From an uncultured Bacteroidales bacterium (GTDB lineage: Bacteria; Bacteroidota; Bacteroidia; Bacteroidales; Muribaculaceae): a stretch of 32,490 nucleotides of DNA. This document shows, piece after piece, positions 30,167 through 32,490 of this stretch. The stretch is taken from NCBI GenBank assembly GCA_902776955.1, contig CACYSG010000025.1:1-32490 (forward strand), read 5' to 3'. The notes under the pieces were generated by a model, which ran no database searches, had not been told where the DNA came from, and saw only the letters and a list, made by a program, of their open reading frames with translations. The first letter of the stretch is position 1. Each line of letters begins with the position of its first letter. The position numbers were made by a program, and so were the translations under genes.

Positions 30167-30202
30167 ATGGAGGATTGTCGGGAGACAATGCCTCCATTTT
30201 TA
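30167..30202 (+). terminator. Rho-independent terminator of the cobalamin operon
   Basis: ATGGAGG and ATTGTC (30167-30179) pair with GACAAT and CCTCCAT (30184-30197) with one bulged G, loop GGGA, followed by TTTTT. It lies 18 nt after the stop codon of the second receptor. An ATG inside this hairpin (30175) is not a gene start. Confidence 0.85.
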
Positions 30203-30251
30203 ATTATGTAAAGCGGTACATCTCAACTCAAACTCACGATAAGACTCTAAG

Positions 30252-30734
30252 TTTTATCATCGCCCCTATAGCCGCTGCCATGGCAGTGGCTGCAGGAGCC
30301 ATGCAGGTGGCAGCCATCAAAAAACAGCAGCAGGCGAGCCAGGCCCAGGGCTACGGCGAGGGCGGTTTCACCCGCAAGGGCCGTGCCGACGAGGTGGCTG
30401 GCGTGGTCCATGCCGGGGAATGGGTGGCGAGTCAGAAACTGGTCGCTTCACCCGTTGCCCGTCCTCTGATCGAGGCTTAGTCCAGGAGAGTAAAGACTTG
30501 AAAGAGATCATCGCCCGACTTAACGAGCGATTGGACGAGCCCTTCGTCACCGTCAACACCGTGACCGGCGACAAGGGCATAAAAACTTGTGCAAGCCGAA
30601 TGCAAAACGAGCTCGCTCGATTTGCTGAGGCGCCGCCAAGTTTATCCAACCAGGCGCAGGACGAGTACCAGCGCCTCATGAACAATAAATCACCGAAATC
30701 TAAAAGAAAATGGGCTCAAACAATGCCGAATTAA
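30252..30734 (+). pseudogene. Remnant of a phage tail tape-measure protein (C-terminal end)
   Basis: The first frame reads FIIAPIAAAMAVAAGAMQVA, then AIKKQQQ, GYGEGGFTRKGR, DEVAGVVHAGEWVASQ and VARPLIEA, the characteristic C-terminal block of Bacteroides-type tape-measure proteins. It stops at 30480. The sequence continues in another frame from about 30480 with LKEIIARLNERLDEPFVTVN and TVTGDKGIK, then QAQDEYQRLMNNKSPKSK. So there is a frameshift or deletion near 30478, and the large N-terminal part of the gene is absent. Within the second frame a 66-nt element (30585-30650) splits GIK from QAQDEY. In the phage the protein sets tail length; here it is dead. Confidence 0.82.
30585..30650 (+). 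repeat. Covarying palindromic element, copy A (in frame in tape-measure remnant)
   Basis: A 66-nt insert of 22 codons lies between GIK and QAQDEY. It shares TGCAAGCCGAATGC on the left and the GCTGAGGCG...GCC block plus TTTATCCAAC on the right with copies B and C. The inner hairpin is GCAAA-A-CGAGC, loop TC, GCTCG-A-TTTGC (30602-30625). The outer ends AAACTTG and CAAGTTT also pair. The arms differ in sequence from those of B and C but keep the same shape. Confidence 0.72.
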
Positions 30735-30829
30735 CTGCGTTTTCCCCATAATGAATATTTTGTTTTTTATATGTTTGAATTTCAGTTATTTACATAATGC
30801 AAAATGAACTCAAAAAACTACCGAATTTC

Positions 30830-30860
30830 TTGGAAAATATGTTAAAATGCAGTATCTTTG
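30830..30860 (+). promoter_or_regulatory. Promoter of the dockerin-FISUMP gene
   Basis: CTTG (ending 30832), 20 nt, then TATCTTTG (30853-30860), a perfect -7 box. Transcription would begin near 30866, about 100 nt before the start codon. The leader contains a 7-bp hairpin AATACCC/GGGTATT (about 30890-30907). The stretch 30735-30829 holds no gene. Confidence 0.72.
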
Positions 30861-30965
30861 CAATCGACTAGTGATGCCATTTGACAAAAAAATACCCTTT
30901 TGGGTATTGTAAGAAAGAAAGGGCATTTATATTGGCACTGATATTAACTAAAAACTATATGTATT

Positions 30966-31838
30966 ATGAAGAAGATTACTGGTTTTTCACTTATCCTGTT
31001 TTTGGTGATGTGGCTAATGCCGTTGGATGTTGTTGCCGATAACACTGGCGGTGATGTCAACAATGATGGCGAAGTCAACATTGCTGACGTAAACACCGTT
31101 ATCGACTTTATTCTTGGCAGCAGAAGTCGTCAAAGTATAGATGTCAACGGAGATGGCGAGATTAATATTGCCGATGTGAATGCTGTCATTGGTATCATCC
31201 TGGAAGGCACATCGGTGTCAGAGGAACATGAGTACGTTGACTTGGGCCTCCCCAGCGGTACGCTGTGGGCAACCTGCAACGTGGGTGCCGATACCCCTGA
31301 GGACTACGGCGACTACTTTGCCTGGGGCGAGACAGAATCTAAGGATGTATATAACTGGGATACCTACAAGTGGTGCAATGGCAGCGAAGGTACGATAACG
31401 AAGTATTGCATTGATGACAACCATGGTTATAATAACTTCACTGATGGCAAGACAGAGTTGGATTTTGCCGATGATGCAGCATATGTTAACTTTGGTACTT
31501 CTTGGCGCATGCCAACTTGGGAGCAAGCGTGTGAGCTAGTTGAGTATTGCAGTTGGACGTGGACATCAAAGAACGGTGTACATGGTCAGTTGGGAACCGG
31601 CCCGAATGGAAACTGCATCTTCTTACCCGCTGCTGGCGGCCGTTGGAACCAGTCGCTCTACCACGTGGGATCATGGGGCGTCTATTGGTCCTGCACGCTT
31701 AGCCCTAGCTACTCAATAGGCTCCACTTCCAACGTTGCATGCTGTCTGGGCTTCTACAAGGACGACATTCACTGGTTCGGCAACGACTATCGCTTCTTCG
31801 GGTTTTCTGTCCGCGCGGTTCGTATCTTGCAGAATTAG
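30966..31838 (+). CDS. Secreted dockerin plus FISUMP-domain protein
   Basis: The 290-residue protein has a signal peptide (about 1-25, MKKITGFSLILFLVMWLMPL). Residues 28-78 are two dockerin type I repeats (GDVNNDGEVNIADVNTVIDF and IDVNGDGEINIADVNAVIGI). The rest is a FISUMP domain (Fibrobacter succinogenes major paralogous domain): VDLGLPSGTLWATCNVGA, FAWGETE, WRMPTWEQACEL, FLPAAGGRW and GFSVRAVRI. FISUMP modules are lectin-like folds found on secreted Bacteroidota proteins; binding of a polymer or another surface protein is plausible. Its dockerin repeats resemble those of the protein at 23822. The gene lies between two broken phage tail genes and has its own promoter and terminator, as for a phage cargo gene or a later insertion. 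Confidence 0.85.
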   Translation: MKKITGFSLILFLVMWLMPLDVVADNTGGDVNNDGEVNIADVNTVIDFILGSRSRQSIDVNGDGEINIADVNAVIGIILEGTSVSEEHEYVDLGLPSGTLWATCNVGADTPEDYGDYFAWGETESKDVYNWDTYKWCNGSEGTITKYCIDDNHGYNNFTDGKTELDFADDAAYVNFGTSWRMPTWEQACELVEYCSWTWTSKNGVHGQLGTGPNGNCIFLPAAGGRWNQSLYHVGSWGVYWSCTLSPSYSIGSTSNVACCLGFYKDDIHWFGNDYRFFGFSVRAVRILQN

Positions 31839-31862
31839 TGCAGCAGCGTCTTTTCAAGGTCT

Positions 31863-31904
31863 AATCGGTTGGTTTACTTTTGTCAGAGTAAACCAACCGA
31901 TTTT
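31863..31904 (+). terminator. Rho-independent terminator of the dockerin-FISUMP gene
   Basis: A perfect 16-bp stem (31863-31878 with 31887-31902) with an 8-nt loop is followed by a short T run. It lies 25 nt after the stop codon, and only 3 nt before the start of the next phage-like frame, so it isolates that gene from read-through. Confidence 0.85.
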
Positions 31905-31907
31905 CTT

Positions 31908-32234
31908 ATGATACTCACGATAAACGGAAAACAGGCAGCGCTGAAGAAGGGGTCTTCGATAGAGTATGTATCGGAGAACCGCATCTTCACCGATGCCGAC
32001 GACTACAGCATGGAGATTGAACTGCCCCTGGCAGACTGTCCGCAGAACCTTGACATCTTCGGGATGATCACCCGCAAGGACGTGGATACTGGTGACATCT
32101 TTTTCGATGCGGTCCTGCAGGACACCAACTTCTTCAAAAATAGAGCAAGCCGAATGCAGAGTCAAGCTTGCTTGAACTCTGTTAAGGCGTAGCCTATTTT
32201 ATCTAACCGAGGTGCCGTCGTGATCACGATTCGA
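31908..32234 (+). pseudogene. Broken phage tail-region gene, N-terminal part
   Basis: The frame starts MILTINGKQAALKKGSSIEY and runs through PLADCPQNLDIFG, ITRKDVDTGDIFFDAVLQDT to NFFK (32138). I recognise this as the N-terminal domain of the small protein that follows the tape measure in Bacteroides-type prophages. A 69-nt element (32139-32207, copy B) then interrupts it and brings an in-frame TAG (32190-32192). After the element the same frame resumes as RGAVVITIR to 32234, which looks like the natural continuation. The product would be about 95 residues and is presumably inactive. Confidence 0.65.
32139..32207 (+). repeat. Covarying palindromic element, copy B
   Basis: A 69-nt insert, 23 codons long, interrupts the phage gene between NFFK and RGAVVIT. 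It shares GCAAGCCGAATGC and TTTATCTAAC with copy A. The inner hairpin is CAGAG-TCAAGC, loop TT, GCTTGA-A-CTCTG (32157-32181); outer ends AAAATAG and CTATTTT pair. Arms differ from copy A but keep the pairing. Confidence 0.72.
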
Positions 32235-32239
32235 TGAAA

Positions 32240-32306
32240 ATATGTGCAAGCCGAAAGCAATGCTAAGTTTACTTAAGCATTGCTAAGGCGCAGCCAAATT
32301 TATGCA
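32240..32306 (+). repeat. Covarying palindromic element, copy C
   Basis: About 67 nt with the same flanks: TGTGCAAGCCGAAAGC on the left and GCTAAGGCGCAGCC plus TTTAT on the right. The inner hairpin is GCAATGCT-AAGT, loop TT, ACTT-A-AGCATTGC (32257-32283). It lies only 32 nt after copy B and ends at the beginning of the next phage frame. The right boundary is uncertain by a few bases. Confidence 0.68.
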
Positions 32307-32490
32307 GACCTACATCGACGAGCTCGACCTGGGCAAATGGCCCAGCATCTACCCCGACAATTCGCCTACAGGCGGCGGGGCCCAGCCACGACCCGGGGAA
32401 GAAGTGTCCTACGCCTCTCCGGCGCAGCTCTGGGGCAGGACGGAGGACTACACCGCCTTGCCGTGGGTCAACAACTCCAGCGGCAACCTG
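32302..32490 (+). pseudogene. Downstream part of the broken phage tail gene, cut by the window edge
   Basis: The open frame reads MQTYIDELDLGKWPSIYPDN through PGEEVSYASPAQLWGRTEDY to the end of the window. The YI[DN]ELDLG segment is what I expect later in the same phage protein as the fragment at 31908, so this is probably the remainder after an internal deletion and insertion of copy C. The apparent ATG overlaps the end of the element and may not be used. It could also be read as a separate gene that is intact beyond the edge. Confidence 0.5.

Follow-up and report, generated by a model that had tools for sequence, protein, structure and literature searches.

Two phage genes and three palindromic inserts

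Two phage genes lie near the end of the window (here the whole stretch of DNA analysed, 32,490 bp), which is the whole of contig C25 in a genome of 3.23 Mb and 123 contigs from an uncultured Bacteroidales bacterium. The first, on the forward strand at 30175–30480, is what remains of a gene for the tape measure protein of a phage tail (phrog_1506, E = 1.8e-12), and this fragment upstream of the first insert is split across two frames. The second (31908–32490, forward strand) is a fragment with no PHROGs or Pfam match; the gene occurs in 69 of the 101 genus genomes, and many relatives have it as an open frame of about 650–700 codons. Many genomes of the genus also carry truncated starts of this second gene (about 40–75 codons), either besides the full gene or replacing it.

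Three copies of a palindromic element are inserted in these genes, all on the forward strand. Copy A (30581–30648; R1 match, 85.7 bits) is located in the 3' end of the tape-measure remnant, and its outer stem is formed by the arms AAACTTG (30583–30589) and CAAGTTT (30637–30643). Copies B (32135–32205; R1 match, 78.5 bits) and C (32236–32306; R1 match, 80.7 bits) both lie in the second phage gene, with outer arms AAAATAG (32137–32143) and CTATTTT (32194–32200) in B, and AAATATG (32238–32244) and CAAATTT (32295–32301) in C. The shared blocks, 2-nt loop and complementary variable ends that an earlier sequence-only reading had described for the three copies are all present, with one mismatch in the outer stem of C.

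Homologous loci in relatives define the inserts. Copy A is a 66-bp insert relative to its empty homologue L014, B a 69-bp insert relative to the intact homologue L376, and C also a 69-bp insert (L381 or L374 compared with L376); the intact phage homologues thus lack these segments, and by length the parental frame does resume after A and B as had been proposed. Copy B nevertheless contains an in-frame TAG (32190–32192; the ORF ends at 32192), and in L381 and L390 the parental reading frame runs into a TAA inside copy C. The window has in addition lost some of the host gene between B and C, which shifts the frame beside C. The same phage gene on contig C68, a paralogous locus, holds inserts of 65 and 69 bp at two sites that are both empty in the window (31926–31934, forward strand, and 31970–31972, reverse strand, respectively), the 69-bp copy being antisense to the gene.

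The region between the two phage genes varies among remnant loci: differing cargo genes follow one phage gene end in the window (30650–31930), L014 (4850–5600) and L012 (4000–5800). The cargo includes a dockerin protein (by Pfam) and, named by eye, a small lipoprotein, a DUF1016-like gene and a secreted protein. In both the window and L014 the start of the next phage gene comes after the cargo, and on contig C84 the leader is present twice in a cassette-like arrangement.

A conserved fold with changing stems

From the fetched loci we collected 165 copies that are unique with their flanks, representing 156 distinct sequences, all of which are matches to a covariance model made from ten of them. 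The element is mostly 65–70 bp long, and the commonest insert is 65 bp. Its plan on the 5' side is C or G, A, a 7-bp outer stem (AANNTNG), T, GC, AA, GCC, GAA and a free base. The apex consists of a stem of 5, 6 or 7 bp, a 5-bp apical stem and a 2-nt loop, with one bulged base on the 3' strand. The 3' side supplies the partners with TGA, GGC, GC(C/A)GC, the outer-stem partner and a tail ATNC, followed by A. The inner strands are nearly fixed and the tandem-GA loop is nearly constant. The odd inner length required by this plan is found in 126 of the 156 copies, of which 123 have the 5-, 6- or 7-bp stem, and the length departs from the plan in the other 30. Of the 126, 73 have the loop TT and 24 the loop TC, 79 have A as the bulged base, and in 119 a bulge on the 3' strand fits better than one on the 5' strand.

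The stems vary in sequence yet stay paired. Watson-Crick pairs make up 1008 of 1050 outer-stem positions in 150 of the 156 distinct copies (six with fewer than four of seven pairs were dropped), and these 150 copies carry 60 distinct arm pairs. The alignment of ten copies has 19 consensus pairs, nine of which show double changes. In a second alignment of 96 distinct rows, 96.5% of cells are paired, a percentage raised by fitting the alignment to the structure, and there are 315 double-change cells compared with 75.7 in shuffles and 27–46 in slid controls. The proposal that compensatory changes keep the fold is therefore borne out. Single-strand folding of individual copies, by comparison, gains only modestly over dinucleotide shuffles (z = −2.5 for A, −3.1 for B and −1.9 for C), and the evidence for the fold is strong because the covariation extends across many copies. 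As the stems change sequence and remain complementary, recognition of the element seems to depend on its folded shape.

The element has no coding role. Rickettsia palindromic elements, with which A and B had been compared, are inserted in frame with open reading through the insert. Both kinds are palindromic inserts within genes (as the available portions of PMC3733652 and PMC2229807 describe the Rickettsia ones), but no open frame runs through B and C, and the commonest insert length here is 65 bp. Insert length is divisible by three in four of the five phage-gene inserts measured and in just 49 of all 156 copies. Given this and the stops in B and C, we reject an in-frame coding insert, and the comparison with Rickettsia elements fails in that respect.

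Distribution

Plain similarity to the stretch with copy A detected seven more places in its own genome, three of which (C84 twice and C10) match solely or mainly the phage flank. The covariance model gave 38 matches at E ≤ 1 in this genome, where 150 of 1312 first-look candidates were scored. At E ≤ 1e-4, 35 of 61 genomes were positive: 33 of 37 in the genus, own genome included, and 2 of 24 from other families. The genus genomes G004, G016, G022 and G031 gave no match, with few candidates scored there. With even sampling of the order at E ≤ 1e-6, 21 of 295 genomes were positive and 15 of 184 genera had at least one positive genome, counting the own genome and genus; these figures are lower bounds, as 17 candidates were scored per genome. 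The element is present in tens of copies per genome in one gut-bacterial genus, and it is found beyond that genus too.

A gapped 23-base pattern occurs in at least 118 stretches of named genomes. The 80 matches listed are nearly all from Bacteroidales, mostly from rumen or gut samples, and include Hoylesella timonensis S9-PR14; one of those listed is titled as a proteobacterium. Two further stretches with the pattern are on viral contigs. All 12 pattern stretches checked with the model (ten genomic and two viral) match it, with 14 matches in total. A blastn search of plasmid and phage records with one copy (75 bases) returned nothing at E ≤ 0.01. The predicted further copies, intact homologues without the segments and an excess of compensatory changes were thus all found.

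Mobility and insertion sites

The element is mobile, as both filled and empty alleles occur for A, B and C, for the two sites at the second prophage locus on C68, and for the leaders of hflX, GH92 and parA. With these empty sites and its 38 matches in one genome, the description of a dispersed palindromic element holds. The insert is 65 bp in the hflX leader and 68 bp in the leader of the divergent GH92 gene, and occupancy of the two sites varies among relatives. G000 and G036 carry a copy in the hflX leader and none in the GH92 leader, the reverse is found in G009, G017, G018, G019, G021 and G024, and both leaders are filled, with a third copy in between, in G007 and G025; G006 and G032 have one match each in this region. 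Across 30 genus loci, the parA leader has from zero to four recognisable copies. Most parA loci without a recognisable copy have the host sequence GTGAAACA, and some of these hold decayed copies. Tandem arrays of copies occur, and copies are also found within phage genes and other repeats.

Insertion sites are rich in A and usually have AAA after a C or G. Across 85 sites the hairpin foot is (C/G)AAANNTNG, and at most sites the As of the left end recur in the right flank (three positions, with A in 78, 76 and 67 of the 85). The two bases past AAA match 48 times compared with 32.8 expected (55 sites, p = 0.0002), although stricter pruning to 39 sites gave p = 0.06 and one of five control offsets reached p = 0.03. 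The target repeat is at most about one base at C and at C68 site b, and up to 5 nt at C68 site a. As there is hardly any repeat at the first two of these, no fixed-length target duplication is demonstrated. At one locus (L054, near 1501) the left and right flanks resemble two different sites, as if two copies had recombined.

A proposed mode of movement

We consider it likely that A, B and C belong to one family of non-autonomous, shape-recognised mobile DNA hairpins served by an enzyme in trans. Each copy is one asymmetric hairpin, mostly of 65–70 bp, and a strand-processing enzyme might read the folded single strand by its shape, with the tandem-GA loop, the bulged base and the nearly fixed inner strands as putative cues. 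Such an enzyme would join the hairpin ends into A-rich targets, preferably single-stranded ones such as open promoters and replicating prophage DNA. Complementarity would be required, or generated, when the element moves and would then decay in place. A more specific version, to which we give only a minor share of probability, is that the 3' arm serves to guide the choice of the AAANN target or is re-copied from it, such that each insertion would rebuild the outer stem, entry would occur at the single-stranded edges of open promoters and the enzyme would not be of the Y1 type.

Candidate mobilising enzymes

The best-surviving alternative is that these are REP/REPIN-type elements served by a RAYT (TnpA_REP, a Y1 HUH transposase), possibly of the kind with atypical structures that the available portion of PMC6006769 reports beside subclass 2.6 genes in Bacteroidetes. 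The element shares with REPs its REP-like size, dispersal, bulged hairpin, unpaired 3' tail and occurrence in arrays, and Y1_Tnp genes were found in 35 of the 38 genomes searched. However, the available portion of PMC6006769 defines REP/RAYT systems by a GTAG/GTGG tetranucleotide at the hairpin foot, which is absent from the foot consensus of our 85 sites. The element is also unlike REPs in being about 66 bp long, with variable stems that strongly covary and no linked Y1 gene found.

Linkage to a REP-type transposase, which the sequence-only reading had suggested looking for, did not emerge. Only one of 80 Y1 stretches (batches of 32, 40 and 8) holds an element copy, about 1.4 kb from the gene; the 80 are a subset of all Y1 genes, ten being from outside the genus and some others from element-free genomes, which makes part of the 80 uninformative. 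The three Y1 genes of the own genome (L015, L016 and L017) are each flanked by their own different palindromic repeats, as read by eye. G013 has 14 element matches and no Y1 gene, and G016 has nine Y1 genes and no element. Elsewhere in the order, five of nine genomes with the element gave no Y1 match at E ≤ 0.001, including the single-contig G392 with eight element matches, although the enzyme may have been lost there, leaving the copies as relics. We therefore reject a REP/RAYT link for the stretches sampled and regard this origin as improbable overall.

Integron attC sites have invariant AAC/GTT triplets in their outer box. The element resembles them in keeping its shape while the stem sequence varies, in its bulged base and in its tandem arrays, but its arms vary at the AAC/GTT positions, with 60 distinct arm pairs. 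An integron integrase exceeded the cut-off in one of 37 genomes, which is outside the genus, and in none of the 23 genus genomes searched, so it too was rejected as the mobiliser; below the cut-off the profile matches 36 of the 37 genomes and all 14 controls, as other tyrosine recombinases would. The recurrent neighbours listed within 1.5 kb of copies at 252 loci (at most 45 families, each identified by eye from the beginning of a single representative) include ParA, ParB, HflX, GH92, the phage gene and secreted proteins, and no transposase-like family. A search of the collected loci for an autonomous parent with left and right halves far apart gave no credible candidate.

Promoters and the nature of the fold

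Copies sense to hflX, GH92 and parA lie directly after TAnnTTTG boxes, which could point to a leader that works as structured RNA, riboswitch-like or mRNA-stabilising, and has spread through its usefulness in 5' UTRs. A sense box ends within 20 nt upstream at 8 of 87 non-tandem sites. However, an antisense box is present in the last 10 nt at 9 of 87 sites. Other 10-nt bins hold 0 to 4 boxes. Plain TTTG is hardly enriched (20 of 87 sites in the last 20 nt, 11–20 of 87 in other windows), and only the longer TAnnTTTG box stands out. About a fifth of the sites may thus be next to a promoter, with the box 5' of the element, and most are not. An RNA leader is also difficult to reconcile with the copies in phage genes and other repeats and with the variable presence at hflX, GH92 and parA among relatives, and a search of Rfam with window positions 30300–32490 (E ≤ 1) gave no relevant match.

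An RNA fold under selection should tolerate G·U over A·C on its functional strand. Among distinct stems, we counted G·T and A·C mismatches at 8:6 in the outer stem, 10:12 in the apical stem and 12:12 in the middle stem, or 30:30 in total, counts that are non-independent as the copies are mutually related. In 26 tRNAs from the same loci there are 39 G·T, 8 A·C and 3 other mismatches. The symmetry in the element, unlike the tRNAs, indicates that neither a sense nor an antisense RNA is favoured, and it argues for a DNA structure rather than an RNA; we thus think an RNA leader very unlikely. Other mismatches (25 outer, 18 apical and 38 middle) outnumber G·T and A·C together in the outer and middle stems, and the 1:1 ratio therefore partly reflects simple decay. 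Both strands of two copies fold about equally well, so folding alone does not show strand choice. Of the RNA-like tandem G·A motif proposed from the GCC/GGC pair and GAA/TRA loop, the loop stands as nearly constant and its RNA nature is opposed by the 30:30 ratio. The fold looks like a property of DNA, or like one renewed by templated copying. Covariation, which often counts as a sign of RNA structure, occurs here in an apparent DNA element, and comparing G·T with A·C is a simple means of distinguishing the two.

Stem changes within and between sites

We compared nearest neighbours within 27 multi-copy site clusters, some changes being counted from both sides. Within clusters, 49 of 119 changes are compensated and 70 are one-sided, compared with 94 compensated and 63 one-sided between sites and 14928 and 3618 across all pairs. 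The clusters led by L019 (hflX promoter), window copy A and L126 (GH92 promoter) have one-sided changes only (5, 2 and 8, respectively), and in one parA cluster 12 of 19 changes are compensated. We infer that pairing arises or is selected when a copy moves and decays from then on, with the parA arrays turning over. Against this, the 49 compensated changes of 119, including those 12 of 19, suggest that copies may retain or restore their pairing without moving. Replication template switching (quasipalindrome correction), which can create and mend hairpins according to the available portion of PMC8794818, might by itself make the complementarity while recombination spreads copies and no dedicated recognition exists, and both the 1:1 G·T:A·C ratio and the multi-base arm changes fit such templated arm copying, but it leaves the nearly fixed inner strands, the 3'-strand bulge, the new insertions at unrelated sites and the uncorrected one-sided changes in the three clusters above unexplained, and its probability is as slight as that of the RNA leader.

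Relation to other repeats

A new family of shape-defined palindromic mobile DNA is most likely, REP- and attC-like in its logic and belonging to neither group by the tests made. Among the titles and abstracts listed by literature searches, which included core sequence strings, none concerned this element. About 150 natural copies in which the shape is kept and the stem sequence is free provide material for reading the recognition code of the putative strand-processing enzyme, and the insertion polymorphisms at the parA, hflX and GH92 leaders are supplied for a little-studied group of gut Bacteroidales.

CGTC-tagged REPs, reported in Bacteroidetes, have stems of 8–9 bp, loops of 4–5 nt and a CGTC tag in the available portion of PMC3733652. 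They are similarly palindromic, have a CCA-like tail, occur within genes too and have no dedicated transposase known in that portion of the source, whereas the element has several stems, internal loops and a 2-nt loop. It resembles a MITE of an insertion sequence as a non-autonomous insertion with empty sites, but it has no conserved terminal inverted repeat sequence, given 60 arm pairs in 150 copies. A Porphyromonas gingivalis MITE (PMC4596501, available portion) is likewise a non-autonomous repeat in Bacteroidales, but it contains a minisatellite.

Some copies are parts of larger repeats. In G320 (L447–L456), near-identical copies lie within a larger dispersed repeat, a probable recent amplification. 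At L030, L031, L032, L033 and L198, copies lie inside a second palindromic repeat, GTAGAGACGCAAAATTTTGCGTCTC, and the composite seems to move.
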